From the NCBI GenBank assembly GCA_030425645.1, contig JAUHZK010000004.1, forward strand, positions 219,583-283,582: a stretch of DNA of 64,000 bases, written 5' to 3'. The stretch is from Gammaproteobacteria bacterium (GTDB lineage: Bacteria; Pseudomonadota; Gammaproteobacteria; JAPPPA01). Under the pieces are notes generated by a model that was given only the letters and a program-made list of their open reading frames with translations, did no database searches and was not told the origin of the DNA. The position numbers were made by a program, and so were the translations under genes. Numbering within the stretch: the first letter of the stretch is position 1; each line of letters begins with the position of its first letter. Shown in pieces: positions 19,774 to 59,617 of this stretch.

Positions 19774-19887
19774 GCTAGCTTTTACCTTGTTCTAGATTAA
19801 ATGGCACACAGGCTAAAGTGCCTGAGACAAAGTAGTTTACTCCGCTTGGTTAGCTAAAAACATTGATCTAAGTCCCATTAGTCGGAG

Positions 19888-24896: not shown

Positions 24897-25091
24897 CGTC
24901 TCTCTTCCTGTGTCTCGTCCGGCGCATACTATAACGTGTTGGTGGCACCCTGCCGCAAGGGCGCAAGCAAAATATGTTGTCTCTGTGACTGGTTGCTACG
25001 TGCTAGTTTTTTGCCTGACGTAGCAGTTACGTACAAGCCACTGATTGAATTTGTATTCATCATCAGTAGCTACAAAAATATTGGAGAAGAC

Positions 25092-37839: not shown

Positions 37840-40681
<2,842 letters not shown>

Positions 40682-40787: not shown

Positions 40788-40804
40788 AAAAAAAGCCTTT
40801 GGAA
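40788..40804 (-). terminator. distal half of the split tRNA-Ile terminator
   Basis: AAAGCCTTTGGAA here (40792-40804) is the exact complement of TTCCAAAGGCTTT at 57670-57682. With the intervening element removed the two form a 13-bp stem with a TGAT loop and, on the minus strand, a run of seven T, a classic intrinsic terminator for the tRNA-Ile at 57691-57767. Confidence 0.85.
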
Positions 40805-40810
40805 TGATTT

Positions 40811-40860
40811 TGTGCGCGGGAGCATAAGTTAAGAGGCAAAAGGAGTATAAGTTGAGACTG
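40811..40860 (+). repeat. left transposon end with two TnsB-site-like motifs
   Basis: The terminal motif TGTGCGCGGGAGCATAAGTT (40811-40830) is followed by a second copy GGAGTATAAGTTGAGAC (40842-40858). Both share the core GAGYATAAGTTRAGA. Confidence 0.83.
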
Positions 40861-40914
40861 TTGGACGTTGCGTCCTCTAGTTTCAGCTTGTAAAGCTAAG
40901 TTATTGTAAAGACT

Positions 40915-42066
40915 CTAACTGATATCCCTGGAAATGATTACTTTGAACGAGTTGCTTTCCTTGTCGTCAATAAAGTCAATGTCCGTATAGGTTTTTATCG
41001 CGCGCTTTATTCCACTTCCCAATCCGCGATAGGGCAAAACTTTTGGAGCAAACGAGGCCAAAATTGGATTTCTAACATTCGAGTTACCCATTTTAATATT
41101 TTCTATCGTTAGATTATTGGGCAAGTGACCGGGGCTCACGATTTCAATTCGATCAGCAAACACTAAAACCTTAATCGGTGCAGATACAAAGTAATCGCGA
41201 TGAATAAGCGCATTGGCAATAAGCTCTTCAAGCACGATTCGCGGAATTTCTGGCTCACCTACCGAGTTGATGCCTTGTTCATTCTGTACATGGCGAATAT
41301 TAGCCAACACAAACCCCAGAACCTTTTGGAATACATCCGACAGCTTGCCGTGAATATCCTGGCTATCGATATAGCGCTCGTCTTCAATATCAATACCCGG
41401 AAAGGCCACCGCTTTTACAATAAAAACGGGTAAGCGTATTTGTGGTCGTGATGCAAACAACAAGGCGCCGCAGATGTTTAGCTGCCCGTTCTTTGCCAAA
41501 TTCATGTTTTCAAGCAGCTGAACACGGGATACGTCTTGGTCTTCAACTCGTTCGCTGTATTCCCTTTCAAAAAATGCGTCAAAAAACTCTTGGTCTATGT
41601 CTGTTACAGAACTACCGTTCACAGGTATCTCATCCGCATGGACCAGCGCCGATGATTGAAACATCCTCAACAGCTCTTCCCGTGCGCTGACTTTGGATTT
41701 GTTGGCGCTATTTTTTACCCATACATGGAGGTTGCCATCCATATAAGGCTTGCTAATACCTTCAGGAACATCAACAACCATCACCATGCCACTGGGTAAA
41801 GCAATGTTCTCCGTGGCTACGGAAATCGGTGGTTTTACATCCTTAGCTGCATTAGAAACCAACTGATTAATTCGCCCCATATCCTCAATAGTTAGTCCTT
41901 GAATGTCTCCGTCATCAGTGACTCCAATAAACAATAAACCGCCTTTAGAATTACTGAACGCCGCTAACTCCGGCACCAGGCTCTCAGCTCGGGTAATATT
42001 TTGCTTAAACTGATGCCTAGAGTCTTCACCACTGGCAATAATGGCTAAGAGTTCTTCGGTTTCCAT
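40915..42066 (-). CDS. AlbA-type ATP-binding protein (Schlafen AlbA_2 with HATPase domain)
   Basis: The 383-residue protein begins with an AlbA_2 domain (SRHQFKQNITRAESLVPELA, AFSNSKGGLLFIGVTDDG) and ends with a HATPase-like region (EELIANALIHRDY, RIEIVSPGHLP, YRGLGSGIKRAI). Such proteins act as regulators or as components of phage defence modules. Its start overlaps the end of the TrlF-like gene by 22 bp, so the two are co-translated and probably function together. It is the gene nearest the left end of the transposon. Confidence 0.83.
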   Translation of the reverse strand: METEELLAIIASGEDSRHQFKQNITRAESLVPELAAFSNSKGGLLFIGVTDDGDIQGLTIEDMGRINQLVSNAAKDVKPPISVATENIALPSGMVMVVDVPEGISKPYMDGNLHVWVKNSANKSKVSAREELLRMFQSSALVHADEIPVNGSSVTDIDQEFFDAFFEREYSERVEDQDVSRVQLLENMNLAKNGQLNICGALLFASRPQIRLPVFIVKAVAFPGIDIEDERYIDSQDIHGKLSDVFQKVLGFVLANIRHVQNEQGINSVGEPEIPRIVLEELIANALIHRDYFVSAPIKVLVFADRIEIVSPGHLPNNLTIENIKMGNSNVRNPILASFAPKVLPYRGLGSGIKRAIKTYTDIDFIDDKESNSFKVIISRDIS

Positions 42067-44672
42067 GCTTCATATACCTGCTTACGTTTCTCGAAGGCTT
42101 CGGCACCACCTTCCATAATACTGACAATGCGTTGCTGAACTTCAGCACAGTCAATGCTGCCGTTAACTAACGCGATATGGTCATCTTGATACTCACAGGC
42201 AATCACCTGTTCCGCATCCCCCAGTACCGGAATATTGGCGTTGTGTGTCGCGAAGATAAACTGGGTAGAAGGCTTAAGCTGGCGAATCAGCTTGATGACA
42301 TCGTCATAGATAGTTTGGTTGTCCAAATCATCTTCAGGCTGATCAATGATCACCACGTCGTTTTCTTGCTGACTCAACACAAACAGCATCAACGCCGATG
42401 CCCGTTGCCCCAACGAGTGGTGCGCCAGTGCTTTGCCGTGATACTCGATGGTAAACACATTCGGAACTTGCCAAGTTAACAAGGCTTCCAGGTTGTTTTC
42501 AAAATACTGCCAGAAGGTATCAAAAGACCCGCTAAGTGTGCTTTTCAGCTTTTCAACGTCGCGATAGGCCGATGCAAAGTCACTGTACTCATCCACCACA
42601 CTTTGCAACGTTGCTTCACGAATACGGCTCCCTCGATACAAATCTTGAATGTGCTTAAGCATGGCAGCCTTATTCCCTTTAAATTGCGGCACAATTTTAA
42701 GGGGCGAATCAGCTCGATTGATCTTGCTCAGCACCTGCTCAATGGTGTGGTACTCCTCTAGACATAGATCATTCAGCTGCGCTAATTCACGCTCTAGGGA
42801 TTGATTCAAATCCGCATGCTGCTGCTCGCTTTTAGCGAGTGCGGCTAGCATTTGCTCGGCTTGATCTAACAAGCCTTTAAGCTGTTTAAATTCTTGTGGG
42901 CTAATTGCCTGTGCACCGGCTTGCTTAAGCTCTGTGGCCAGTTTGCGTTCAATCTCGGCAAACTCTTCTTTTAGCGCCTGCTTTTGTTGCACAAAGCCAG
43001 CCAGCTTCTGCTGTAATAGCGCAACCGTATTTTGACCATTGAGCACCGTTTGCTTGATGCCATCAAAGCCAGTAATCAACTGCTGGTAGGTAGCAAAAAA
43101 GTCATCAAAAAATGCCTGGTTCTGGGCAGATTTATACAACGCCTGATTTTTTAGCTCATCTTCAAAGCTGGCGACAAAACTATTGAGCTCCGGAAGATAA
43201 TGCTCAGCACCGTGAATGACTTGCTGCGCTTTTCGCTCATCGCGGGCAAAATCAATTTGCTTTTGCAGCTTGGTCTCTACACCGTGTTGCTGATAGAACT
43301 TGAGTTTAAATTCAGCATCTTGCTTTTTTTGCAACCATTCTTGCTTTTGAGTTGCCGCTCGAGTGAGGCGCTTAATCTGATTTATCGCGTCCACCACCCG
43401 CTGACGACCTTGCTCAATTTTTTGCCGAACAGGTACTAGCTCGTCGCCAAGCAGCTTTTCAATCAAATCTTTTTCAAAGCCAGCGCCCGTGCTGGAAAGA
43501 TCTTTCTGGCCAAAATAAATCGGCTGATGCAATACCGTTTCACGCACCGACACGCCCGGTTGCAACTGGCCATTCACATACACATCGGGGCGTTCACCAA
43601 ATATACGGCGAATTTGATAAGGCTGACTGCGGCGGTCGATTGCATCGATGGTGATTTTGCCGCCACTACCTAGTAAGTGTTTTACTAGCCCTTCTTTGTA
43701 TTCCACATCCGATGATTTGTCGCCAAAAGGAATATTGAGCGCGTAGCGCACCCCTTCTAGAACAGATGATTTGCCGCTGCCACGTATGCCAATCAGGGTG
43801 TTTAGCTCGCGAGAAAGGTTGATTTCAGTGCCTCCCAGAGCGCCAGCGCCTTCAAAGGTGATCTTTTGAATATAGGAATGCTTATGGCTAGGTAGCTCAA
43901 CACGTATTCTGGAGGTTTTGTCCATCAGAGCAAACTTAACGGCCTCAAAACTAAAGGAGCCAAGTTTTAGGTAACTAGCTTCTTTACGCGTCTTCATATC
44001 CGTAAGGCACTTGGCGTCACAACCTTCTACTTCAGCTGGATATAAATCACCCAACGCCTGCTGGATTTTTTCTCGCTTATCGCGGGTGCGTACTTTTTGA
44101 AAGGCCAACGCTCTGCGCCTTACAGTTGCGTTATCAAAGAGCTCGCGTATTCTCCCTGGCGCTAGCCCGCCCCATAGACCATTAGGCGCTTCAACGTGCG
44201 CAAAAATGAGGAAATAGTCTTTGTTAAATTTATTCAGTTCTCGTACTGTCTCAACGATGTCGTGGTTAGAGCGGGCATTTTCATCTTCAAAGTTAGCAAT
44301 GCCAGCAAATGTCAGGCTGAGAAAGGACTGGATATGGTTGGTATTTTCTTTGTTATTAAACCAATCTTCCGAAAATACGACCAAGGTATGCACGCCGTTT
44401 TGGCCGTCCTTGATTGAAAGCTCAAGACCGGGTAGCAAGCCGATACCTGACTTGCTCGCTTTTTTACGGAGGTGTTTGAATTCATCTAAATCGAATTTGT
44501 TGTGGTTGGTAATCACGCCTAGACCGATAGAGGCGTCACGCAGGCCAGCCACGTATTGATTCAGATAGTCATTATCCGGGCCGTCGAAACTGAATTCTTT
44601 GTCGGCGCGCGTGTGCAGATGGAAGTCCGCCTTAAGCCAGAGGCTGCCATATTTAAATAATGTCTCTGTCAT
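42045..44672 (-). CDS. TrlF-type PHP-domain SMC-like ATPase
   Basis: The 875-residue protein starts with a PHP phosphoesterase domain (DFHLHT at residues 16-21; ITNHNKFDLDEF) and continues as an SMC/ABC ATPase: Walker A GIRGSGKSS (about residue 295), long coiled coil (about 400-700), signature and Walker B region LGQRASALMLFVL and VVIIDQPEDDLDN, then FATHNANIPVLGD. This is the TrlF arrangement found in defence islands, where ATPase-controlled cleavage of nucleic acid is expected. Paired with the AlbA gene; comparison with known multi-gene defence systems would settle its class. Confidence 0.83.
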   Translation of the reverse strand: MTETLFKYGSLWLKADFHLHTRADKEFSFDGPDNDYLNQYVAGLRDASIGLGVITNHNKFDLDEFKHLRKKASKSGIGLLPGLELSIKDGQNGVHTLVVFSEDWFNNKENTNHIQSFLSLTFAGIANFEDENARSNHDIVETVRELNKFNKDYFLIFAHVEAPNGLWGGLAPGRIRELFDNATVRRRALAFQKVRTRDKREKIQQALGDLYPAEVEGCDAKCLTDMKTRKEASYLKLGSFSFEAVKFALMDKTSRIRVELPSHKHSYIQKITFEGAGALGGTEINLSRELNTLIGIRGSGKSSVLEGVRYALNIPFGDKSSDVEYKEGLVKHLLGSGGKITIDAIDRRSQPYQIRRIFGERPDVYVNGQLQPGVSVRETVLHQPIYFGQKDLSSTGAGFEKDLIEKLLGDELVPVRQKIEQGRQRVVDAINQIKRLTRAATQKQEWLQKKQDAEFKLKFYQQHGVETKLQKQIDFARDERKAQQVIHGAEHYLPELNSFVASFEDELKNQALYKSAQNQAFFDDFFATYQQLITGFDGIKQTVLNGQNTVALLQQKLAGFVQQKQALKEEFAEIERKLATELKQAGAQAISPQEFKQLKGLLDQAEQMLAALAKSEQQHADLNQSLERELAQLNDLCLEEYHTIEQVLSKINRADSPLKIVPQFKGNKAAMLKHIQDLYRGSRIREATLQSVVDEYSDFASAYRDVEKLKSTLSGSFDTFWQYFENNLEALLTWQVPNVFTIEYHGKALAHHSLGQRASALMLFVLSQQENDVVIIDQPEDDLDNQTIYDDVIKLIRQLKPSTQFIFATHNANIPVLGDAEQVIACEYQDDHIALVNGSIDCAEVQQRIVSIMEGGAEAFEKRKQVYEAWKPKNS

Positions 44673-45019
44673 GAATGGTCTTCCCTCAAAGGTTGATTCG
44701 CCTAACGGATTTGATTTTTATTGTGTTCAGGCGAATTTTTAGGGCAAATTTAATCCAATTTTTGGATGTCTAAGGCTAAGTGTGGTTTAACAGGAGCTTG
44801 CAATTCGCCGCCTGTCCATATTAGAAGTTATCTTTTCACTTCAAATTGCCTTGAGCATACTAGGCCCGCTTCTACACAGCTAATATTACAGCCCGTGGGT
44901 GCTTTTGGGGGGGTAAGCTCGAAATTAATGGGTGTGACGTTTGTACCAAGCTTTTTTGAAATGGCTGGTTAACTTGCTAACAGCTAATGTTAGCAAACTA
45001 AAAAATAGATTGGGAAGTC
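44673..45019. other. intergenic stretch between trlF-like gene and the intron-bearing tRNA
   Basis: No convincing gene is seen in these 347 bp. The only clear structure is a perfect inverted repeat TTGCTAACA/TGTTAGCAA with a five-base spacer (44974-44996), starting 23 bp beyond the tRNA 3' end. It could be a transcript-ending hairpin without a T run, a protein-binding site, or a relic of a mobile-element end. Confidence 0.5.
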
Positions 45020-45360
45020 TGGTAGGCCTGGTAGGACTTGAACCTACGACCAAGGGATTCACGGTATCAAGTTGTTTCTAACTTGCGTGGACTATCTCAC
45101 CGCCCGCATTCGTTGCGAATGGTAGGGCGCGGGACGCTCTAGCCTGTTATTAAGGGCGCTTGCCGACAAGAGTTAACTTGAACAACAGCCCTCAGGTAGT
45201 CTCTGCACCTTCCAGCAGTGTACTGCTGGCTTGGCTCAGGGTTGCCGGCGGCTAGCTGCCACTACGGGTTCCCTGAATTCATCCCGTTCATCTCGTAGCT
45301 TTCACCACAAGCGCACCATTTTGATGAGTCCCCTGCTCTAACCAACTGAGCTACAGGCCC
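45020..45360 (-). tRNA. tRNA-Ile(CAU) split by a group I intron
   Basis: Exon 1 (45324-45360, 37 nt) runs from the acceptor stem to the anticodon CAU; exon 2 (45020-45059, 40 nt) holds A37, the rest of the anticodon arm, the TTGGTC variable loop, T arm, acceptor strand and encoded CCA. Joined, they form a regular 77-nt cloverleaf with GTAGG/CCTAC T stem and a G1-U72 pair. Exon 1 is identical to the chromosomal tRNA-Ile at 57731-57767, whereas exon 2 differs in the T stem and acceptor strand with pairing kept. The CAU anticodon and TTGGTC loop fit the lysidine-type tRNA-Ile2. Confidence 0.88.
45060..45323 (-). ncRNA. group I self-splicing intron (IC3-like) in tRNA-Ile(CAU)
   Basis: The 264-nt insert follows the anticodon (U36) and ends in G just before A37. 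Exon CAU plus intron CA pairs with UGGUG across an AAA loop, forming P1 with the required U-G at the 5' splice site. Conserved core: CCTGAGCCAAGCC (P4-P5 region), a P6 hairpin CCAGCAG/CTGCTGG, GGTGCAGAGACTA (plus-strand 45197-45206 holds its core) and GATAGTCC (45089-45096) forming P7, then a P9 hairpin CAAGTT/AACTTG. The position equals that of the Azoarcus tRNA-Ile(CAU) intron. No homing endonuclease is encoded. Confidence 0.9.
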
Positions 45361-45399
45361 AAACGCGGGCGATGATACGTCAATTACCAGTAACGTTCA

Positions 45400-46674
45400 T
45401 TAGTTAGGTGTAACGCGTTCTATTTGTATCGCCTTTCTGAGGATGTGTACCGGCAAGCGATGTTGTTGTCGTAGCTTTCTAATAAGCTTTTTGCGCCCCA
45501 TGTGTGGGTTCTCGGCAATGATTTTAAACGCTTGGTGGTGGGCTAACTTAAATTGTTCAATACGCTTTGCTGCTTGTTGTTCTGTGCGCAATGCAATCAA
45601 TTGGTCGCATAAGTTTGGGAAGTGATATTCCAACCCACCTGTGGAACAACCTAAAGTTTTAGCTATTGCAGCTAACGAAGGAGCTTCGTCGCCAGCATGA
45701 CTGGCCTTTAATTGTCGCTTCAGGGACGTCTCAATTCTTATTAATTCGAGCGAGCTGAGTGTGCGTCGCTGAGCCTTAAATAAGATCTCAGTGTCATTGG
45801 GCCAGCTATGCGTAATCGATCGAGAGGTATAAAGGCCGAGGCCTAATATGAAGTCTACTAGAGGAACATCAAGTAACACTGCGAGGCGGCGAGCGATTAG
45901 TAAAGTGATTGGTTTGTGGTCTACGTATGTTAAGCATTCATCACGAGGAATATGTTCCCAGAGTACGCGCTCAATCTTGCTATGCCAGTGGGCTTCATAG
46001 ATGTCGTTTAGAGAAGTTTTTGCGCCTTCTATAGGAAAATCTTGTGTGGGCAACGTTGCTGTCGCATAGATGAGGGAAAGTAGATCTCCGCTATATGGTG
46101 GGTCAGTGTCTGCAAGGAGAGATTGGTCGTCATATAGTGAGTTGTTGCACCGGTTGCATTTCGATAGTTGATTATTAGGTTTCGTCGAATTTTGTTTGCA
46201 ACCACAGTGCGGGCACTTTTCAATCAAAGCGACGTGGTGATCTTCACAGTGCGTATGGCCCAGTAAACTCCATGAGAGCTTTAGATAAGGTATGGATTGC
46301 GACTTATCCATCTCCGAAAAACATGCTGGGCACCAACGTATATTCTTTGCAAAGGTTTTGGAGCAGCGATGAACTGCTCGGCCTAGGCCTATAAACGTCA
46401 TTCGTTCAAGGTCGTCTTGATCGCAGTCGCTGCAGGCAGAGTAAGCCTCAAGCAAGGCCATGTTGGTTCTGTTTGGTCTTACTAGCTCAGCATTACTTAT
46501 GGCACCCCATTTGGGATTGCATTCGGTTGAGGGCTGCCCAGTCTCAAAGCAGTAACGTAGCAAGCGTGAAGTTGACACGATGTGGCGACCTGCCGAGCGC
46601 ATAACCAAGGATGTGAAAGATTCCACATCCTTAGTGTTAAGCCCAAGCGGAGTGATTGGGTTTAACTTCAACAC
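45400..46674 (-). CDS. tniQ: TniQ/TnsD-like target-selection protein
   Basis: The 424-residue protein has the TniQ zinc region: WCPACF (Cys115, Cys118), the HTHCEDH segment, KCPHCG (Cys154, Cys157) and CNRC (173, 176). The C-terminal third contains helix-turn-helix-like units such as LAAIAKTLGCSTGGLEYHFP, typical of TnsD proteins that bind a chromosomal attachment site. Start is GTG at 46674, overlapping the tnsC stop by one base. It ends 39 bp from the intron-bearing tRNA. It presumably recognises the tRNA-Ile gene and recruits TnsC. Confidence 0.85.
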   Translation of the reverse strand: MLKLNPITPLGLNTKDVESFTSLVMRSAGRHIVSTSRLLRYCFETGQPSTECNPKWGAISNAELVRPNRTNMALLEAYSACSDCDQDDLERMTFIGLGRAVHRCSKTFAKNIRWCPACFSEMDKSQSIPYLKLSWSLLGHTHCEDHHVALIEKCPHCGCKQNSTKPNNQLSKCNRCNNSLYDDQSLLADTDPPYSGDLLSLIYATATLPTQDFPIEGAKTSLNDIYEAHWHSKIERVLWEHIPRDECLTYVDHKPITLLIARRLAVLLDVPLVDFILGLGLYTSRSITHSWPNDTEILFKAQRRTLSSLELIRIETSLKRQLKASHAGDEAPSLAAIAKTLGCSTGGLEYHFPNLCDQLIALRTEQQAAKRIEQFKLAHHQAFKIIAENPHMGRKKLIRKLRQQHRLPVHILRKAIQIERVTPN

Positions 46675-47702
46675 TATAGCCGACCTCCCATTTGGTGGGA
46701 CTTAGTCGCCGTTTGAAATGGCTTTGCTGACTTTTTGCCCTTTTTCGAGGGTTTCAAAGACTGTATAGGCTTCGATGTATAGCCCAACAGACTTTCGCCT
46801 TCATGGATTTCTGCCAGTAACGATTCGCGAGCTGCTTCACTGCGGGAGCAGTACTGGATCAGTTCCTTAGTGATTTTCCCGTTTGTACGATGCTGGGCTC
46901 GGGGTAATGTGCTACGTACGAGTCGCAGCAATAAACCTGCACAGCCCAGTGATTCGTTGAAAACCAGCTTTAGGTGAGGCATGAAGGCTTCGTACCCAAT
47001 AATGGTATCAACGGCGGCGACCAATGCTGCGAAGTGATCTAAGTCACTTGGTCGATCCAGCTGGTAGCGAGGGAAATGAATGAATTCGCTGCGCCCAACC
47101 AAGTGTGAATTACTTGGTAGAAGGTGTATTAGTGGATAGGCTCCGCTAAATAGCAGTGTGATATCAGCTTCTTCTGCCAGCCCTTTCCAAGAGTCTAATA
47201 CGGCACTTACGTTGCGTAATCCGCCTGGTAAGTGCAGCAGGTGTTGAGCCTCATCAATGAAGAGGTATTTAATCTCTAAATCAACTAGCGCAAGTTGCAT
47301 AGCCATTTGTAGCTCTGCTTCGCTCGTGCGATGGATTAGCCGAGCTAGCTTAATGCCCGATGGGTCGTCTGGCCCAGGTTTGCCAAAAAATGGGTGCTCA
47401 ATTGCGGCTAGCATTTGTTGGGTGAATGATTTGGTGGAAAACGCTCCGTTTCTCGATGTATTGCGTACAGCAATACGCATCGTTACGCGTTTAGAACCTT
47501 TAGCACTAAGCGGGTCCAGCTCTAGCCTTACTTCGTTAGTACCAGTTGTTTTGCCGACGCGTGATGGGCCAGTGAGCCAGATCACCTCGCTACCATAGGC
47601 AGCGCTTAAAGCACCACGGGTATCGCTAGTGAAAAGGTCAAAGTGGTGATGACGAAGGCAGGCATCGCCTAGCGCGGCAATAGTTTTATCAATCTGTTTC
47701 AT
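46674..47702 (-). CDS. tnsC: TnsC/TniB-like AAA+ ATPase
   Basis: ATG 47702, preceded by GGAAGG, gives 342 residues; a start at 47717 would add five. Walker A is GPSRVGKTT and Walker B LFIDEAQH, with LLFSGAYPLIHLLPSN as sensor region. The ATPase forms the bridge between the target-bound TniQ and the transposase and marks the insertion site. The basic C-terminal tail (KPSKKGKKSAKPF) may contact DNA or TnsAB. It starts 2 bp after the tnsAB stop. Confidence 0.87.
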   Translation of the reverse strand: MKQIDKTIAALGDACLRHHHFDLFTSDTRGALSAAYGSEVIWLTGPSRVGKTTGTNEVRLELDPLSAKGSKRVTMRIAVRNTSRNGAFSTKSFTQQMLAAIEHPFFGKPGPDDPSGIKLARLIHRTSEAELQMAMQLALVDLEIKYLFIDEAQHLLHLPGGLRNVSAVLDSWKGLAEEADITLLFSGAYPLIHLLPSNSHLVGRSEFIHFPRYQLDRPSDLDHFAALVAAVDTIIGYEAFMPHLKLVFNESLGCAGLLLRLVRSTLPRAQHRTNGKITKELIQYCSRSEAARESLLAEIHEGESLLGYTSKPIQSLKPSKKGKKSAKPFQTATKSHQMGGRL

Positions 47703-47704
47703 GG

Positions 47705-50092
47705 TTATTCCTTCCATTCAGTAATGGCAATAGATGGGAGATTGCTTGGGGTGATATTGGCAAACGGGTCGAAATCATCGGCAGCAACAGGTGCTAAATC
47801 GGTTGGTTTTGAGGGGGTGCTAAGAATTTTTCCTATGATCTCGCGATGCTTCTTGGGTCCGGCTACAGCAGCTACTTGATTTTTAATGGCTGAATAATTC
47901 GACGCGATGATGGCCTGTGTCACACGTTCTTTATGTTCAAGCCCTGCATAGTTATCTGGATTGGTGCAGTAGCAGACCACCCATTCGCCTTTCACTGCCG
48001 CGTAGACGCGGTCAGGTGATTCGGGTTCTAGCCGGACGTCGATTTTGGATTTTTTTAGCTTGTGTAATTTGAATGCTGGGCTCCAGTAATGGCGCCCATT
48101 GATATGTAAGCCACGTTGAGGGTCGAGTGTGAACTCACGTACGTCGACGGCCGTAATTAGAACAGCATCTCCATCGTATTCGGCTAGGACACCGCTACTA
48201 GTGATTTGGTTAAGGCTCGTGCGCAAAGCGAAGCTAGGTGCATAACCGTTTTCATTGGAGGTGGAGTTGTTGTACCAGTGAATGTAGTTTTGTGCGGCGG
48301 CAATAAAATCGATAAGTGGGATATTGGCCTTGCGGTCTGGCGAGTGGCTGCCAGAGGTGCTGCGGGCGGATTTGATGTCCACTACGTTGCCGGGCAGTCG
48401 CTTTAGGAACTGTTTCCGAACGGTTTCAAAATAGGATTCAATTTGGCCTCCACTTTGTGGGTAGCCAGCGGGTTTTAATTCGTGATTGAAACCGTAGTGT
48501 GCTGCAAGCGCGGCCATATAGTCTGAACGGTATTCAGAGCCGCGATCTGTACGAATGGTTTCAGGAAGCCGTTTGTGAATCCGGATGCATTGCCGGATCA
48601 TGCAGGCGACTGACACTCGGCTGGGTTGGCGAACATCCACCCAGATTGCCAATACAGCTCCCGAATAGAGATCTTTAAGTACGCTTGCCCATGCCTTCTT
48701 GGTTACTTTGACCTCGTCAACATTGGCTAGTACAACGTGTAGGTCAATCAGATAGCTGTCACATACTGCAATCTCAAAGGCGCGACTAGCTTTTAAGCTG
48801 CGTTTGGTCGCATCCGAGGCGCTGCGCGCGAGATTGGCGGATCGGTTGCCTCCGAAATCGCGTGCGAGTTCAACGGCGTCCATTTGCTTTAGGTGAGCTT
48901 TAAAGGTTTTAGGGTCGACCGCTTGCTCGCCTGAGTGGCTTTCGTTGGCAACATTAACGTATTCGTCAAAGCTGGCAGATGACTTTTTGTCAGCAAGGTA
49001 TTTGTCCAGTGTTTCGATTACTAAAAGTGGTCTTTTGTTGTTGCGATTGCCCTTCTTAGAGTGGTCGGTCAGCATTGCTTCGAGTGGGCTAAGGCCCTGA
49101 GCGAGTCCTTCTTCTAGCTTCTTTTTTAGGCTGTAGAAAGTGCTTCGGGGGGAACCACTTTCGATTACCTTTAGTCGGTTAAGGGCATCGGCTAGTGCTT
49201 TACGACATCCCCGCAGTCGTAATGGAGACAAAAGTGGTTCTGGAAGGTCACGCTTTGAAAGGACCTCATCTATGACCCTTAGCCCTAGGTGGTCGCTTGT
49301 GATTAAAAATGATGACGCATCCACAATGCGTTGCTTGTGTAGCGCGCATAACAAGGTGCCGTTAGCGATTAAAGCGATTAGTGGGTCTAGGTTGGGTAGT
49401 GATAGTTGTAGCCGCAAATCTTCTAGGGATGTGTAATTGCATTGAGATAATGCGGTGACGGCTTTCTCGCCTAAGGCGTCGAGGCCATCAATATTTGCTC
49501 GTATCACCTGAAGTAATAACTTGATGTTGAGTGATTCGATCTTGCTCATGTCGTCACTGACAACAACGTGATATTTAATACCGAGTTTTTTATAGGCCTT
49601 TTCGAGTGGAACAAAGCGATAGCCTTTTCGGGTTCGTTTCCAATCGATTGGTCGCGTCTCAACTAGCTTGTCGAGAGCTTCGCGTGGTTTTACCTCAATT
49701 GCTTCTACCCCAGTGCTGGTTAGTACTAGGAAGTCGGGAGTACACGTTTGGCCTCGTGTTCGCCCGTTCTTCATGGTGATTTTTACGGTAAGAGGCTCGG
49801 GTTGAGATAAGAACCACTCAACATTGGGGTCGTGCTCTAGGCGTAGTGCGACTGCCAGTTCGCCTTCACGGCTTTCTAACGGAACGCTTCGCTGCATCTT
49901 GTGGCTTTGAAACTTAACGCAGGTAGACAGGTAGGGTGTTTGTCCAACTTGCCGAGATGTGTCGCGCATTACGGCACGGCGTACGTAGTCTTTACCAGCC
50001 TGGTTTTGATTATTCCCAGCTTGGTAGGACTCGAAGTCAAATAATGCGCCTGAAGTAGATTCGGGCACAGCGGGGTCTAGGTATGGGCTCAT
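47705..50092 (-). CDS. tnsAB: fused TnsA-TnsB transposase
   Basis: One 795-residue chain joins two enzymes that are separate in Tn7. Residues about 50-200 form a TnsA-type endonuclease with Glu76/78, Asp120 (TCTPDFLVL) and the EVK triad end (AIEVKPRE, Lys135). Residues about 340-740 form the TnsB/Mu-type DDE integrase with Asp in VCDSYLIDLH (445 or 450), Asp516 in IRTDRGSEYR and Glu552 in SGGQIESYF, followed by a beta-barrel domain. Both active sites look intact, so cut-and-paste movement is possible. AGAGGAAAGG precedes the ATG. Confidence 0.9.
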   Translation of the reverse strand: MSPYLDPAVPESTSGALFDFESYQAGNNQNQAGKDYVRRAVMRDTSRQVGQTPYLSTCVKFQSHKMQRSVPLESREGELAVALRLEHDPNVEWFLSQPEPLTVKITMKNGRTRGQTCTPDFLVLTSTGVEAIEVKPREALDKLVETRPIDWKRTRKGYRFVPLEKAYKKLGIKYHVVVSDDMSKIESLNIKLLLQVIRANIDGLDALGEKAVTALSQCNYTSLEDLRLQLSLPNLDPLIALIANGTLLCALHKQRIVDASSFLITSDHLGLRVIDEVLSKRDLPEPLLSPLRLRGCRKALADALNRLKVIESGSPRSTFYSLKKKLEEGLAQGLSPLEAMLTDHSKKGNRNNKRPLLVIETLDKYLADKKSSASFDEYVNVANESHSGEQAVDPKTFKAHLKQMDAVELARDFGGNRSANLARSASDATKRSLKASRAFEIAVCDSYLIDLHVVLANVDEVKVTKKAWASVLKDLYSGAVLAIWVDVRQPSRVSVACMIRQCIRIHKRLPETIRTDRGSEYRSDYMAALAAHYGFNHELKPAGYPQSGGQIESYFETVRKQFLKRLPGNVVDIKSARSTSGSHSPDRKANIPLIDFIAAAQNYIHWYNNSTSNENGYAPSFALRTSLNQITSSGVLAEYDGDAVLITAVDVREFTLDPQRGLHINGRHYWSPAFKLHKLKKSKIDVRLEPESPDRVYAAVKGEWVVCYCTNPDNYAGLEHKERVTQAIIASNYSAIKNQVAAVAGPKKHREIIGKILSTPSKPTDLAPVAADDFDPFANITPSNLPSIAITEWKE

Positions 50093-50229
50093 TTGCCTTT
50101 CCTCTTTCTATGGTTAAAAAGTCAGAGAGGCACAGGCCGACCGCTTGGAGCATTGACAGCCCCAAGAAAATGGTTAAGCTAGGTAATTCGAACTCACGCA
50201 GCTTTCTCTGATTGATGCGTAAAAAACAG

Positions 50230-50265
50230 AAGCCCCGTGCTCTCGCCAGAGCACGGGGCTTTTTT
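50230..50265. terminator. bidirectional intrinsic terminator upstream of tnsAB
   Basis: A 13-bp stem AGCCCCGTGCTCT/AGAGCACGGGGCT with CGCC loop has T runs on both strands. It ends the small HTH gene transcript and insulates tnsAB, which therefore needs a promoter within 50093-50229. Confidence 0.88.
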
Positions 50266-50272
50266 AGTTAAC

Positions 50273-50473
50273 TCACGTCTTTTTCTCTTTTGGGTCTGGT
50301 TTGATGCCTAATGCCACGGCAATCCGATGAGATTCACCGCGTTTGTATTTTGATAATCCATTTAGCACGTTATAGACCAGGTGTTTTTTGTAACCGTGGT
50401 CTCTGGCCCATTGCGCGACAGAGGTTCCTTGGGCTTCAAACTGGGCTTTGATTTCGTCAGGTGTGCTAATCAT
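50273..50473 (-). CDS. small helix-turn-helix protein, BcepMu gp16-like
   Basis: The 66-residue protein (TPDEIKAQFEAQGTSVAQWA, then RDHGYKKHLVYNVLNGLSKY) resembles the BcepMu gp16 group of DNA-binding proteins from transposable phages. The closing GESHRIAVALGIK is typical. It is divergent from the XRE repressor gene across an AT-rich control region. Likely a small Ner/Cro-like switch for the element. Confidence 0.72.
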   Translation of the reverse strand: MISTPDEIKAQFEAQGTSVAQWARDHGYKKHLVYNVLNGLSKYKRGESHRIAVALGIKPDPKEKKT

Positions 50474-50564
50474 TGTCTATATATTTAATATAATAGATAT
50501 ATATGTAATATAATGTGATATTATGTAATTACAGATTAAGTGCTATTAATGCAAGGTTATTGGA
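50474..50564. promoter_or_regulatory. AT-rich divergent promoter/operator region
   Basis: This 91-bp gap repeats TAATATAAT-type sequences, among them TTTAATATAATAG, GTAATATAATG and GATATTATG. Repeated AT-rich units between two divergent regulators suggest shared operators and two promoters, like the control regions of transposable phages. Confidence 0.55.
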
Positions 50565-50951
50565 ATGGTGGCTAGGATGCAAGTGGTATCAAACGCTAGT
50601 CCCAAAGCCGACAGGCTTCGACAGGAAAGGGTGCGCCTTGGTTTGACTCAAGCCGAGATGGGGCTGATTGGTGGGGTGAAAACGCCGACCCAGTCCATGT
50701 ATGAGCGCAGTGCCTCATCTCCTACTTGGGATTACTTAGATGCCATCGCTCAGGCTGGCGTTGATGTTTCTTACGTTCTTTTTGGTAAGAAAAGCAGTAT
50801 GCATCAGACGCTAGACGAAAATATTGTGCGGGCTGCTCTTCAAGCGCTAAGAAACGTGAGTAAGGAATTGGATCCTTCCAAGGCGATGTCTTTGGAAAGC
50901 GAAACAAAGGCATTCGTGGAGATGTACAAGCTTGCAACAGGTCAAGAATAA
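50565..50951 (+). CDS. XRE-family repressor
   Basis: The 128-residue protein has an N-terminal helix-turn-helix (RLRQERVRLGLTQAEMGLIG, SMYERSASSPTWDYLDAIAQ) followed by DVSYVLFGKK, typical of phage-type XRE repressors. AAGG sits 8-9 bp ahead of the ATG at 50565. Probably represses its own promoter and that of the divergent small HTH gene, and so controls the transposon. Confidence 0.82.
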   Translation: MVARMQVVSNASPKADRLRQERVRLGLTQAEMGLIGGVKTPTQSMYERSASSPTWDYLDAIAQAGVDVSYVLFGKKSSMHQTLDENIVRAALQALRNVSKELDPSKAMSLESETKAFVEMYKLATGQE

Positions 50952-51480
50952 GGATGATTCGTTTCTAGCCAAATATTTGACAGGAGTTTTGCGAGGCTGG
51001 ACCCAAAGTGGTTTTATACCTGTTGAAGAACAGCAAGTAGACGAAGCTGTAGATCACGCGCGGAGATCGGGGCTTGTGGGACTGGTTTTCTATTTGGTGC
51101 TTGGGCTGGTTTTGATATTTTCATATGCCGTTGCGGCCGTCGCCCTAATTACACTGAAAGATGCATCTACATACGTCGTCTTTGCTAGCGCGAATTTCGT
51201 CATTTATTCGGCGCTTTACGTGCACGTCTCCCGGAAGACAAAGAAAATATTGAGTTATTCGGCCGATGCGAGTGACGAGGTTAGGGTGATGCTGAATCTC
51301 ATTGCAAACCTTATCCATATGGCTGTTGGGATTTCATATGCAACTTGTATTGTTTTCTCCGCGCTCGTTCCTAGTCTATTGTTTGGTTCTCTTGGTTATT
51401 CGTTCGGCACCGTTCTGATTGCGCTTCTGGTGCTCTTTTTCTTTTGCTATCGGTTTGATAATTACAATCACGCCCGGTGA
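50932..51480 (+). CDS. four-helix membrane protein of unknown function
   Basis: The 182-residue protein would begin with TTG at 50932, overlapping the end of the XRE gene by 20 bp, so translation is probably coupled. After a soluble head (1-45) four membrane helices follow in two pairs (about 47-75, 78-98, 120-145, 150-172). No family recognised. Membrane partners beside repressors in defence islands sometimes act as effectors or modulators, but nothing here proves that. The start is the weakest point. Confidence 0.55.
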   Translation: MQQVKNKDDSFLAKYLTGVLRGWTQSGFIPVEEQQVDEAVDHARRSGLVGLVFYLVLGLVLIFSYAVAAVALITLKDASTYVVFASANFVIYSALYVHVSRKTKKILSYSADASDEVRVMLNLIANLIHMAVGISYATCIVFSALVPSLLFGSLGYSFGTVLIALLVLFFFCYRFDNYNHAR

Positions 51481-51648
51481 GCTTGGATGAAGTCCGCTCT
51501 AAGTAATGTCGCCACGTATCGGCATTTGTCTCGTTGTACAGACGTAAGGCTCAGGTAGCGTTAATCATAAATTCTAGAAGTGCGCCTTGCGAATCTTGTT
51601 GGTCGTAGACATCGCATCGGGCACAATGAGGTCGAAGGAGATAGTTAA

Positions 51649-53214
51649 ATGCCATTTGTCGATTGGGTCAATAAGAACCAGGCCAAAGAAAGTACCCATC
51701 GTGTTCCAGTGCACTTGCTCCAGCAGGAAGCCGTTTATGGGGACACAACCGGCCCCTATTCAGACAACCTGTTGATTCAAGGCGACAACCTGCTGGCCCT
51801 CAAAGCGTTGATGCCTGTCTATGCCGGGCGAATTAAGTGCATATTTATTGATCCACCGTATAACACTCAAAGCGCGTTTGCGCATTACGATGACAAGCTG
51901 GAGCATAGCCAGTGGTTAAGCATGATGTACCCCCGTCTGGTCTTGCTGCGTGAACTGCTCAGCGAGGATGGCAGCATCTGGGTAACCCTGGACGACAACG
52001 AAGCACACTACTGCAAGGTGCTTATGGACGAAGTGTTCGCGCGTAAAAATTTTATCGGTACCGCGACCTGGCAGAAAACGACCAGCGTCCACAACAACGC
52101 CACGCAGTTTTCCTCAGCAACAGATTTCGTTCTGGGTTATGCGCGAGACAGTGAATCCTTCAGTATGGGACGAGTTCCCCGGTCAGAGCGCAATTTAACC
52201 GACTATTCCAATCAAGACGACGATCCGCGAGGACTCTGGAGCACGAGCCCCCTCCACGTAAGTCTTACTTCTGGTCAAAGAGGTAGGCAGTACGCAAAAA
52301 CTGGAAAAAGTTCAGGATTATTCCCAATCGTCAATCCCCACGGGGAAGAAATCCTGCCACCAAGAGGACGGTGCTGGGGATACTCGGCAGACCGCATATC
52401 AGAACTAGATGCCGAAGGGAGGATTTGGTGGGGACGAGACGGGCGCAACCAGCCGCGATTGAAACGGTTTATATCCGAGCTAGATGATGGGGTAGTGCCA
52501 ACCACGCTGTGGCTCTCGGAAGACGTTGGGCACAATCAAGAAGCCAAAGCTGAAACCGCTGCCGTGCTTCAAGGAGTAGATGAGCTTTTCGCCACCCCTA
52601 AGCCCGAACGGCTGATTAGGCGTATTTTTCAAATTGCGACGGACGATGGCGACTTGGTTCTCGATTCATTTCTCGGGTCAGGCACAACCGCCGCAGTTGC
52701 ACACAAAATGGGCCGCCGATACGTTGGCATTGAAATGGGTGATCATGCCAAGACTCATTGCATACCTCGATTGGAAAAGGTCATTGCCGGAGAGCAGGGC
52801 GGCGTCAGTGAAGCGGTCGGCTGGCACGGTGGCGGCGGGTTCCGGTTCTGCGCGCTTGGAGATACAGCCTTTGATGCCGATGGCCGGATCAACCCGGATG
52901 TTCAATTCAATACTCTCGCCTCGTTCATCTGGCACTTTGAGACCGCAATGCCAGCGGCTGACACCTTCGACACCCCGTTGCTCGGTGTCCATCAAGGTAA
53001 AGCGTATTACCTACTGTACAACGGCATTCTGGGGGATAAGCGACCGAATGGAGGCAACGTACTGACTCGGGCTGTGCTCCAGATGCTTAGTGAGCTGCAC
53101 CCCCACGATGGCCCGAAGATCATCTACGGTGAGACCACCCGGCTGGGAGATTCTAGTTTGGCCGCTGAGGGAGTGACTTTCCAGCAGATCCCTTACGATA
53201 TAAAGGTACGCTGA
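51649..53214 (+). CDS. mod: type III restriction-modification methyltransferase Mod, copy 1
   Basis: The 521-residue enzyme is a beta-class adenine/cytosine-N4 DNA methyltransferase: DPPYNTQ catalytic motif (about residue 69) precedes the AdoMet-binding LDSFLGSGTTAAVAHKMG motif (about 350). GGAG lies before the ATG. The N-terminal about 140 and the C-terminal about 190 residues are nearly identical to copy 2; the central 150-335 region, the target-recognition part, is different. Each Mod should therefore methylate its own site. Type III Mod provides site specificity to Res. Confidence 0.9.
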   Translation: MPFVDWVNKNQAKESTHRVPVHLLQQEAVYGDTTGPYSDNLLIQGDNLLALKALMPVYAGRIKCIFIDPPYNTQSAFAHYDDKLEHSQWLSMMYPRLVLLRELLSEDGSIWVTLDDNEAHYCKVLMDEVFARKNFIGTATWQKTTSVHNNATQFSSATDFVLGYARDSESFSMGRVPRSERNLTDYSNQDDDPRGLWSTSPLHVSLTSGQRGRQYAKTGKSSGLFPIVNPHGEEILPPRGRCWGYSADRISELDAEGRIWWGRDGRNQPRLKRFISELDDGVVPTTLWLSEDVGHNQEAKAETAAVLQGVDELFATPKPERLIRRIFQIATDDGDLVLDSFLGSGTTAAVAHKMGRRYVGIEMGDHAKTHCIPRLEKVIAGEQGGVSEAVGWHGGGGFRFCALGDTAFDADGRINPDVQFNTLASFIWHFETAMPAADTFDTPLLGVHQGKAYYLLYNGILGDKRPNGGNVLTRAVLQMLSELHPHDGPKIIYGETTRLGDSSLAAEGVTFQQIPYDIKVR

Positions 53215-53217
53215 GGC

Positions 53218-53307
53218 ATGTTTAAACTGAAGAAATATAAAGACACGTTGCTTGCTGCTGAAATACTCATGTATTTACGGCGTGCTTTAATTGCGGGGAT
53301 AAATTGA
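53218..53307 (+). pseudogene. remnant of a res gene start between the two mod genes
   Basis: An ATG three bases after mod copy 1 opens MFKLKKYKD and stops after 29 codons. The full res gene starts MLKLKKYQD at the same distance from mod copy 2. The remnant shows that an entire mod-res unit was once duplicated or replaced here and that its res was deleted after the first codons. Confidence 0.75.
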
Positions 53308-54843
53308 ATGCCATTTGTCGACTGGGTCAATAAAAACCAGGCCAAAGCAAGTACCCATCGCGTTCCAGTGCACTTGCTCCAGCAGGAAGCCGTTTATGGG
53401 GATACAACCGGCCCCTATTCAGACAACCTGTTGATTCAAGGCGATAACCTGCTAGCCCTCAAAGCGTTGATACCTGTCTATGCCGGGCGAATTAAGTGCA
53501 TATTTATTGATCCGCCGTACAACACGCAAAGTGCGTTTGAGCATTACGACGATAAGTTGGAGCATAGTCAGTGGCTTAGCATGATGTATCCACGGCTTGT
53601 CTTGTTGCGCGAGCTTCTTGGCGAAGATGGAAGTATTTGGATCACTGCCGATGATAATGAAACGCATTACCTAAAAGTACTTTGTGACGAGGTGTTCGGA
53701 CGAGCTAATTTTGTTAGACATATTACCTGGCAAAAAAAGTACAGCGTAAGTAATAATTTTAGAGGAATAGCATCCATAACCGACCACGTTCTTGTGTATC
53801 GAAAGTCGCCCGCTTTCGCCAATCAGTTGTTGCCACGAACTGACGACGCTGCAGCACGTTACTCTAATCCGGACAACGACCCGCGAGGCCCATGGAAGGC
53901 TGTAGATTATCTAAACCAAGCGTCAATCGCCCAGCGTAAAAACCTGGTTTACGATATTGAAAACCCAATCACGGGCGAAATCGTTACCAATAAGGTTAAG
54001 GCTTGGAAATACGAGCGAACAAAACACGAAGACCACGTAAGGGAGAATAGACTTTGGTGGGGACTGAAAGGAGAAAACTCTGTACCTGCGTTGAAGCTTT
54101 TTCTTTCTGAAGTTCGAGATGGAATGACACCGCACAACTGGTGGCCTCATAGTGAGGCCGGCCATACTGATGAAGCTAAAAAAGAAAGTATCGCTTTATT
54201 TGGGGCTACGTCGGCATTTTCAACGCCGAAACCCGAGAGATTGCTACATAGAGTGCTGACATTAGCCACCCGCCCTGGTGATATTGTCCTTGATTCTTTT
54301 TTAGGTTCGGGTACTACATCGGCGGTTGCTCACAAGATGGGACGTCGTTACGTCGGTATTGAAATGGGCGATCATGCTAGGACCCATTGCGCACCGCGGT
54401 TGGAAAAAGTTATTGCCGGAGAACAGGGTGGTATCAGTAACTCGGTCAACTGGAAAGGTGGCGGCGGCTTTCGGTTCTGCAGGTTGGGAGAAGCGGCCTT
54501 CGACGTGGATGGCCGAATCAATCCAGATGTGCGATTCAATACATTGGCTTCATTCATCTGGCACTTCGAGACGGCCACACCTGCTGCTGACACCTTTGAT
54601 AAGCCATTGCTTGGAGTTCATGAAGGCAATGGCTATTACTTGCTTTATAACGGTATTTTGGGAGACAGGCGACCAGATGGCGGTAACGTGCTTACTCGGT
54701 CGGTCCTTCAAATGTTGAAGGAACAGTACCCCCATGAAGGGCCGAAGGTTATCTATGGGGAAACCACACGGTTAGGTGACGCCAGCTTGGCTGCTGAAGG
54801 CGTGACCTTTCAGCAAATCCCCTATGACATAAAGGTACGGTGA
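53308..54843 (+). CDS. mod: type III restriction-modification methyltransferase Mod, copy 2
   Basis: The 511-residue second Mod has the same DPPYNTQ and LDSFLGSGTTSAVAHKMG motifs as copy 1 but a different, more AT-rich centre (about residues 140-325), so it should recognise another sequence. It ends 4 bp before the res start and is the mod most likely co-translated with res. Both mods could in turn partner with the single Res. Confidence 0.9.
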   Translation: MPFVDWVNKNQAKASTHRVPVHLLQQEAVYGDTTGPYSDNLLIQGDNLLALKALIPVYAGRIKCIFIDPPYNTQSAFEHYDDKLEHSQWLSMMYPRLVLLRELLGEDGSIWITADDNETHYLKVLCDEVFGRANFVRHITWQKKYSVSNNFRGIASITDHVLVYRKSPAFANQLLPRTDDAAARYSNPDNDPRGPWKAVDYLNQASIAQRKNLVYDIENPITGEIVTNKVKAWKYERTKHEDHVRENRLWWGLKGENSVPALKLFLSEVRDGMTPHNWWPHSEAGHTDEAKKESIALFGATSAFSTPKPERLLHRVLTLATRPGDIVLDSFLGSGTTSAVAHKMGRRYVGIEMGDHARTHCAPRLEKVIAGEQGGISNSVNWKGGGGFRFCRLGEAAFDVDGRINPDVRFNTLASFIWHFETATPAADTFDKPLLGVHEGNGYYLLYNGILGDRRPDGGNVLTRSVLQMLKEQYPHEGPKVIYGETTRLGDASLAAEGVTFQQIPYDIKVR

Positions 54844-54847
54844 GGTC

Positions 54848-57529: not shown

Positions 57530-57601
57530 TAAGCTTCGTGGTTCTTCTGGGTGAGGAATCGCGGTTTTCGTTATTGATAGTGGGGTAGCTTGGGTCAGAT
57601 T

Positions 57602-57667
57602 GTCTTAACTTATGCGCCCGCGGGATCATAAACTGAGATTATGTCTCAACTTATGCTCCCGCGCACA
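57602..57667 (-). repeat. right transposon end with TnsB-site-like motifs
   Basis: Read leftward from 57667 the end starts TGTGCGCGGGAGCATAAGTT followed by GAGAC; a second copy (GCGGGCGCATAAGTTAAGAC) lies at 57602-57621. A third, inverted and weaker copy, GGGATCATAAACTGAGAT, lies between them (57622-57638). Confidence 0.83.
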
Positions 57668-57669
57668 AT

Positions 57670-57682
57670 TTCCAAAGGCTTT
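57670..57682 (-). terminator. proximal half of the split tRNA-Ile terminator
   Basis: TTCCAAAGGCTTT here is the promoter-near arm of the tRNA-Ile terminator stem; its partner lies at 40792-40804 on the far side of the transposon. Confidence 0.85.
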
Positions 57683-57690
57683 GAGAGTGT

Positions 57691-57767
<77 letters not shown>

Positions 57768-57814: not shown

Positions 57815-59617
57815 CTATTGTCCGTCGAGGAAGGTTTTTAGGGCTTCTGAGCGGCTTGGGTGACGAAGCTTGCGTAGCGCTTTGGCTTCGATCTGACGGA
57901 TACGCTCACGGGTCACGTCGAACTGTTTACCAACTTCCTCAAGGGTGTGGTCGGTGTTCATGTCGATACCAAAGCGCATGCGTAGTACTTTGGCTTCACG
58001 TGGGGTCAGAGAGCCCAGCATGCCGTGCATAGACTCTTGCAGGCCGCTTTGAACGGTGTTCTCTAGCGGTGCCTCGGCATTTTGGTCTTCGATAAAGTCG
58101 CCTAGATGCGAATCTTCGTCGTCGCCGATTGGGGTTTCCATTGAAATAGGTTCTTTGGCAATTTTTAGTACCTTGCGAACCTTGTCTTCAGGCATTTCCA
58201 TGCGCTCGGCCAGCTCTTCTGGCGTTGCCTCGCGGCCCATCTCTTGCAGCATTTGGCGGCTAATACGGTTGAGCTTGTTAATAGTCTCAATCATATGTAC
58301 CGGAATACGGATGGTACGCGCTTGGTCAGCAATCGAACGGGTGATCGCCTGACGGATCCACCAGGTTGCGTAGGTAGAGAATTTGTAACCACGGCGGTAT
58401 TCAAATTTATCTACGGCTTTCATTAGGCCGATGTTGCCTTCTTGGATCAGATCCAAGAATTGTAGGCCACGGTTGGTGTATTTCTTCGCAATCGAAATTA
58501 CCAAACGTAGGTTGGCTTCAACCATTTCACGCTTGGCGCGGCGGGCTTTAGCTTCGCCTACGCTCATGCGCTTGTGGGTGGTGCGAATCTCGTCAATCGG
58601 TAGACCCGCTTCGGTTTCTAGGTCGGTTAGGCGACGTTGAATGCGTAGCAGCTCGTCTTTACGAACGTTGATCTTTGAAGAGTGCTTGCGCTTGGCGCGG
58701 ATGATTTTTTCAATCCACTCAGGATCAGTTTCGTGACCAGGGAAGGTGGTGACGAAGTCTTTCTGTGGCATGCCGCACTCGTAAACGCAGATAGTGCGGA
58801 ATAGCTTCTCTTGGTCGCGAATGCTTTCCATGGTGAAGCGCAGCTCATTGCCTAGCTCTTCAACAATTAGCGGCGGCAATTTGAAGTGCAAGAAAGCATG
58901 CTGCATTTCTTGCGTCGCTTTAATGTACTGCTTGCTATCGTGGCCGTGGCTTTCTAGGGCGCGCAATGATTTTGCGTGAGCCTTTTTCAGCACTTTCATT
59001 TGCTCGGCCACGTCGTTCGGGTCAAGCGGAATATCTTCGGCGGCGGCTTCTTGCTCGGCAGCAATCTGGCCGTTCTCAGGAATGTCATCGTCGTCGCGGT
59101 TGTCTGGGTCAACCAGATCCATCACCACGTCTTCTAGCTTGCCTTCCTCTTCGCGGTTGGCATCCCAGTTCTCTAATAGGATTTGCGCCGCGCGCGGGTA
59201 AGCGCCAACTACAGATAGGGCTTCGTAAAGACCTTCTTCGATGCGCTTGGCAATGGCGATTTCGCCTTCGCGAGTCAGTAGCTCAACTGAACCCATTTCG
59301 CGCATATACATGCGTACTGGGTCAGTGGTGCGGCCTTGCTCGTTATCTGTTGCAGCCGCTAGTGCGGCAACCGCTTCTTCAGTTGCGGTGTCATCGTCGT
59401 CAGATTCGCTACGATTAAATGTCAGATCGGATTCGTCTGGCGCTTCTTCGTGAACATCAATACCGAGATCGGAAAACATACCAACGATATCGTCGATCTG
59501 TTCTGGATCAACAATGTCATCCGGCAGGTAATCATTGATTTCTGCGTAGGTTAGGTAGCCTTGCTCTTTGCCGCGGGCAATAAGCTGGGTAAGCTTGGAA
59601 CGCTGGTCGTCGCTCAT
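57815..59617 (-). CDS. rpoD: housekeeping sigma-70 factor RpoD
   Basis: The 600-residue factor directs RNA polymerase to main promoters. Region 1.1 is present ([20 protein letters not shown]), then region 1.2 ([20 protein letters not shown]), a large non-conserved acidic insert, region 2 ([35 protein letters not shown]), and region 4 with the -35 helix ([20 protein letters not shown]). It follows dnaG in the usual macromolecular synthesis cluster. Confidence 0.97.

Follow-up and report, generated by a model that had tools for sequence, protein, structure and literature searches.

The window, a 64,000-nucleotide stretch of gammaproteobacterial DNA, contains a 16.9-kb Tn7-like transposon of the TnsAB-fusion type (positions 40812 to 57667) whose cargo includes an intron-split version of the tRNA-Ile(CAU) gene beside which it has inserted. 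The anatomy, insertion site, and structural integrity of this element copy, as well as the ancestry of its group I intron, are documented below. We consider it likely that this transposon holds a functional spare of the tRNA at its attachment site, captured as an intron-bearing tRNA-Ile(CAU) gene from a related host; we infer from the sequence that the copy is transcribed and spliced and that it is of benefit as a spare or as an extra supply for AUA codons. The intron lineage itself is widespread, and the unusual part is its presence, within a copy of the landing-site tRNA gene, on a Tn7-like element.

The intron-split tRNA gene

The split gene lies on the minus strand at positions 45360 to 45020 and corresponds to a 77-nucleotide (nt) tRNA-Ile(CAU) into which a group I intron of 264 nt is inserted behind U36. 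The Rfam group I model RF00028 matched the region from 45336 to 45068 (minus strand) with 58.2 bits (gathering threshold, 50 bits; E value, 3.5e-12), and the alignment of the insert spans the full model length (positions 1 to 253). When introns were allowed, ARAGORN reported the gene at 45360 to 45020 with a 264-nt intron and an anticodon mis-phased as CTG, and the default run did not report the split gene at all. The first-pass annotation, which had proposed that a group I intron interrupts the anticodon loop of a transposon-borne tRNA-Ile(CAU) gene and that standard tRNA finders might overlook this gene, is thus borne out by the match in the Rfam search that it had suggested, by both ARAGORN runs, and by the inverted transposon ends around the gene. 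No other group I intron was found in the genome (2.75 Mb).

The 5' exon (nt 1 to 37; positions 45360 to 45324; GGGCCTGTAGCTCAGTTGGTTAGAGCAGGGGACTCAT) was delimited by ARAGORN with introns and by exon extraction; it ends in CTCAT and shows no difference from the corresponding half of the host tRNA-Ile(CAU) gene (57731 to 57767). The intron follows at positions 45323 to 45060, starting with CAAAATGGTG and ending with G. The 3' exon (nt 38 to 77; positions 45059 to 45020; AATCCCTTGGTCGTAGGTTCAAGTCCTACCAGGCCTACCA), which was defined by exon extraction and comparison with the host gene, encodes the CCA end. When joined computationally, the exons give a 77-nt product with a cloverleaf fold and a CAU anticodon, and the anticodon loop of the spliced element copy is identical to that of the host tRNA. 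Two sequence features set the element copy apart: the joined exon boundary, in which CTCAT is followed by AATCCCTTGGTCGTAGG, is unique to it, and the T arm GTAGG...CCTAC is specific to its 3' exon. Its acceptor stem also contains a G1-U72 pair that is unique among the 18 aligned sequences and could reflect drift or weaker charging.

Structural integrity of the intron

The transposon gene was aligned with 17 tRNA-Ile(CAU) genes of other genomes that also have an intron, and 71 base pairs over the tRNA stems and P1, P2, P3, P4, P6, P6a, P7, P8, and P9 were tested in the resulting set of 18 sequences. All 71 pairs form in the transposon copy, including those of P1, P3, and P7, and standard pairing was seen in 99.4% of the cells across the 18 sequences. 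Two-sided changes occur at 25 pairs, none of 500 shuffles reached the observed pairing and covariation values, and pairing fell to about 45% when the partners were shifted by one column. The fold energy has a z score of -4.3, and none of 100 shuffles was equally good.

Every pair of the core helices P3, P4, P6, P7, and P8, with the P3/P7 pseudoknot, is present in the transposon copy. Invariant in all 18 sequences are (i) P1 (45326 to 45314, minus strand), in which CATC (45326 to 45323) pairs with GGTG (45317 to 45314) and places a U-G pair at the 5' splice site; (ii) P3 (45286 to 45130, minus strand), formed by CGGGATG (45286 to 45280) and CGTCCCG (45136 to 45130); and (iii) P7 (45201 to 45090, minus strand), formed by GACTA (45201 to 45197) and TAGTC (45094 to 45090). 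The U-G pair of P1, the P7 strands, and the terminal G were found as the first-pass annotation had described them. The CAU/GUG P1 is presumably the same as that of the Azoarcus tRNA-Ile intron, which belongs to subgroup IC3. The U-G pair, the terminal G, and the intact helices are what an active group I intron requires, and the transposon intron is, as judged from these elements, intact and probably self-splicing.

The transposon and its attachment site

Inverted ends of 25 bp and of the TGT...ACA type were identified at 40810 to 40834 and 57644 to 57668, with further copies; the inverted end sequence TGTGCGCGGGAGCATAAGTT is located at 40812 and 57667. The left end (TGTGCGCGGGAGCATAAGTTAAGA), together with a second repeat, covers positions 40812 to 40858 of the plus strand, and the right end (TGTGCGCGGGAGCATAAGTTGAGA), with further repeats, covers 57600 to 57667 of the minus strand.

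The transposition genes are on the minus strand. The tnsAB gene (47705 to 50092) encodes a fusion transposase with Pfam TnsA N, rve, and Mu-transpos_C domains that is 31% identical to the TnsAB of Frateuria; the Pfam matches and an alignment with the Nostoc and Frateuria fusions show that a single protein combines the TnsA and TnsB domains and that TnsC and TniQ come next. The tnsC-like gene (46674 to 47717) encodes an AAA ATPase (Pfam AAA_22 and TniB; 26% identity to Frateuria TnsC; E value, 2e-28). The tniQ/tnsD-like target selector gene (45400 to 46674; Pfam TniQ, 2.6e-12) ends with a stop codon 39 bp upstream of the split tRNA gene, with which it shares the strand. We did not consider the element to be a CRISPR-associated transposon, as no cas family or CRISPR RNA was matched among the open reading frames (ORFs) and in the scans made, and it is not an IStron either, as the 264-nt intron encloses no transposase and the transposase genes are located outside it.

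The cargo includes a Schlafen AlbA_2 protein gene (40915 to 42066, minus strand; Pfam, 2.8e-19), a gene for a TrlF-family/Ppl-like PHP-ATPase (42045 to 44672, minus strand; NCBIfam TrlF, 561.7 bits; PADLOC Ppl), which is a candidate anti-phage protein, and a type III restriction-modification system with two mod genes and a res gene (51649 to 57529, plus strand; PADLOC MTase_III and REase_III). In the tandem mod genes (51649 to 54843), the first 300 nt are 92% alike, whereas the middle parts diverge. A gene for a dipeptidase-like lipoprotein immediately beyond the transposon contains a (GGDTGD)n repeat tract at 40194 to 40560, and a second paralogue of it is located at 24936 to 27440.

The attachment gene is the intronless host tRNA-Ile(CAU) gene (57691 to 57767, minus strand), which was identified by the tRNA search and the Rfam scan and adjoins rpoD (57815 to 59617). 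This gene and the element copy were the only two tRNA-Ile(CAU) genes found in the genome. The CCA of the host tRNA and the transposon are 23 nt apart, and this spacer (57668 to 57690, minus strand) contains the 5' half of the tRNA terminator (CAAAGCCTTTGGAA). The other half (TTCCAAAGGCTTTTTTT; 40788 to 40811, minus strand) is found on the far side of the transposon, together with a 4-bp AAAT repeat. When joined, the flanks give CAAAGCCTTTGGAAATCATTCCAAAGGCTTTTTTT, a typical intrinsic terminator, indicating that the element landed in the terminator loop of the host tRNA-Ile gene. The flanking repeat consists of the 4-bp AAAT only, where a 5-bp duplication would be expected.

Close relatives of the transposase were sought in genome contigs, viral contigs, plasmids, and samples of genomes of the class and the phylum, and only an element in Frateuria terrea was comparable; the identity of TnsAB to the examples compared was only 24% to 31%. 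The F. terrea TnsAB fusion, with 31% identity over its length, is also followed by TnsC and TniQ. Immediately upstream of this element are rpoD and an intronless tRNA-Ile(CAU) gene, and a TGT sequence occurs 21 nt after the CCA; the same gene thus serves two distant elements of this branch. Neither a second tRNA-Ile copy nor a group I intron was present in the stretch of the F. terrea element that was read, and the tRNA copy is therefore not a constant component of the family at large. Some published TnsAB-fusion elements have a TnsD that uses tRNA genes, and in one case that was tested the insertion point was 30 to 33 nt beyond the tRNA (PMC11406308, PMC10293859).

Distribution and ancestry of the intron

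A search with RF00028 in a class-wide sample of 369 gammaproteobacterial genomes gave matches in 55. Among the matches examined, an intron at the identical site of an rpoD-linked tRNA-Ile(CAU) gene was found in 20 of the other 368 genomes, and the assumption of the first-pass annotation that such tRNA introns are unusual in gammaproteobacteria consequently fails. That assumption agrees with older reviews, as tRNA introns have been tabulated for cyanobacteria and for alpha- and betaproteobacteria only (PMC4033280); tRNA-Ile2 introns have also been reported in Acidovorax and Burkholderia (PMC8450103). The introns of tRNA-Ile(CAU) are thus widely distributed among gammaproteobacteria. As default tRNA annotation misses them, many genomes would appear to lack an essential tRNA.

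The chromosomal introns (L044 to L063) are like the transposon intron in splice site, P1, and core, with 60% to 81% identity, and in all aligned relatives the intron is located between U36 and A37 and P1 is unchanged. The nearest one (81% identity) is the intron of a congener (G112), whose RpoD is 97% identical. In the intron tree, the transposon copy joins this chromosomal intron as its sister on a long branch (support, 100/98). Its sister position indicates that the transposon intron is that of a captured chromosomal gene and not a new intron class, and its source is the genus of the window genome or a close relative. When the intron DNA was used as a query, there were no matches in plasmids or Escherichia coli, and phages gave short partial matches only.

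The host tRNA-Ile(CAU) has G7-U66 and U6-G67 pairs, a mix absent from the aligned relatives, in which pair 7-66 is either G7-C66 or A7-U66. This pairing and the absence of the congener's intron suggest that the host gene may be a recombinant itself; the comparison that bears on the order of events behind the copy and the host gene is limited to two genomes.

Group I introns were also seen in other gammaproteobacterial tRNA genes (L016, L018, L021, L024, L027, L034, L040, and L042), among them the tRNA-Leu(UAA) genes of three genomes and several genes with other anticodons. In one genome (G173:C1:320016-321821; L037), three group I intron matches lie within 1.8 kb, outside the detected tRNA genes.

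Function and alternative explanations

In the mechanism that we favor, the sole tRNA-Ile(CAU) gene of the chromosome would serve the TniQ/TnsD-type selector as attachment site, and a second, complete tRNA-Ile(CAU) gene would have been captured from a related host with its group I intron retained. Transcription of the copy would either continue from tnsAB-tnsC-tniQ or begin at a start of its own. The intron would then fold and excise itself from the RNA, with a guanosine attacking behind U36, where P1 has its U-G pair, and the exons would be joined after the terminal G into a normal 77-nt tRNA-Ile2. TilS, the gene for which is present in the genome, would modify this tRNA for the reading of AUA. 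The intron would accordingly be a passenger of a spare for an essential single-copy tRNA gene, next to which the element lands. The promoter search upstream of the tRNA copy gave no consensus promoter. A promoter common to the element copy and the congener tRNA gene was considered and dropped, as the similarity of the flanks was not above that of shuffles (z = 1.5).

AUA accounts for 41 of the 276 isoleucine codons (15%) in the element genes and for 25 of 626 (4%) in the neighboring host genes (p = 4e-8), and with AUA codons four times commoner, the element could be helped by an added AUA-reading tRNA; foreign origin is a confounder here, as such a bias is also expected of foreign DNA, even with no benefit from the tRNA.

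A serious rival, which we hold to be possible rather than probable, is that the tRNA gene was acquired by accident, e.g., through imprecise use of an end near the attachment site, and that it gives no benefit and is intact because it is recent. Consistent with such passive capture, only one element with a copy was found, the F. terrea relative is devoid of it, and the copy has the unique G1-U72 pair; the host gene already supplies the tRNA, which makes the element copy redundant and speaks against a spare role. However, 51 alignment columns, including 33 substitutions, separate the transposon intron from that of the congener, and wherever the differences fall in helices the pairs are all still formed in the transposon copy, which argues for selection during that divergence. 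Some of the divergence may predate the capture.

The 3' exon of the element copy differs from the host gene at 10 of 40 nt, in the T arm and the acceptor stem, and the same count was obtained against the congener. In addition, it is without the 3' end GGTGGGCCCACCA that the host and F. terrea attachment genes have in common. By the Tn7 TnsD footprint, the selector should contact the 3' region of the attachment gene, and an altered 3' half could in principle allow the copy to escape its own TniQ, which would prevent self-insertion. We regard such recoding as unlikely, since the 3' exon resembles those of other gammaproteobacterial genes, one of which (G269) differs by only 2 nt, and since Tn7-like elements already have target immunity. 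We similarly doubt a broader proposal, namely, that there is a class of Tn7-like elements with a complete, intron-bearing, sequence-altered copy of the attachment tRNA by tniQ, which would act as a rescue gene unrecognised by the element's own selector and on which the host would grow dependent once the chromosomal gene decays.

The copy is located between tniQ and the TrlF/Ppl-like and Schlafen-type cargo genes, which might hint at a nuclease-resistant or replacement tRNA that serves the defence cargo. A 55.6-kb viral contig (IMGVR_UViG_3300033153_013781; L107:609-916) also encodes a tRNA(CAU) split by a group I intron of the same kind (94.2 bits), beside tRNA-Phe and tRNA-Lys genes. A link to defence is nevertheless very improbable, as these cargo proteins are not known to act on tRNA and the spliced anticodon loop is the same as that of the host.

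A chance fold or the remnant of a dead intron is hardly credible: although the RF00028 score of 58 bits is below the 70 to 92 bits of most relatives, the core helices are intact, the invariant core bases are kept, and the E value is low.

Comparison with known systems and other mobile elements

The transposon intron is like the bacterial tRNA-Ile(CAU) introns of Azoarcus, Acidovorax, and Burkholderia (the Azoarcus work is cited in PMC4033280) in gene, in position in the anticodon loop, and in being small and without an ORF, but it occurs in a gammaproteobacterium and on a transposon instead of at a chromosomal locus. The rpoD-linked chromosomal introns of gammaproteobacteria are in the host's own gene, whereas the transposon intron interrupts an additional tRNA gene whose 3' exon is different. 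With the TnsAB-fusion Tn7-like elements that use tRNA attachment sites, which are relatives of CAST I-B2 and I-D, the window element shares the TnsAB fusion, TnsC, TniQ, and the short fixed distance past the tRNA (PMC11406308, PMC10293859); in contrast to them, it has no CRISPR genes among the scanned ORFs and has its own copy of the target tRNA aboard. An IStron combines a group I intron with an insertion sequence (PMC4227781), whereas the intron described here has no transposase and no role in the splicing out of the transposon and is located in a cargo tRNA gene.

The searchable literature contained no description of a transposon that brings along its target tRNA gene as a copy or of a tRNA intron combined with a Tn7-like element. 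The combination of an intron-split tRNA and a Tn7-like carrier rests on one genome. Here, a probably self-splicing tRNA intron travels on a DNA transposon within a complete tRNA gene. Such carriage would be a simple route for introns and tRNA genes between bacteria without a homing enzyme, and it raises the question of whether transposons that land at essential tRNA genes carry spares.

In four genomes, the motif TGTGC-N6-(G/C)CATA(A/G)(G/T)TT was found 21 to 24 nt past an intron-bearing tRNA-Ile gene (L048:10253, L050:10221, L051:10257, and L053:10245), matching the end of the window transposon in spacing and place, and L053 has an inverted near copy at 19803. We did not take these motifs for the ends of related transposons, as a tblastn search with the Tns proteins of the window gave no matches in the 13 to 49 kb downstream of each locus. 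The viral contig with the split tRNA(CAU) gene indicates that intron-bearing tRNA genes do travel. Two provirus contigs (L105 and L106) begin inside an intron-bearing tRNA-Ile(CAU) gene, with a gene for a tyrosine integrase just downstream in L105, indicating that another type of element lands in the same gene.
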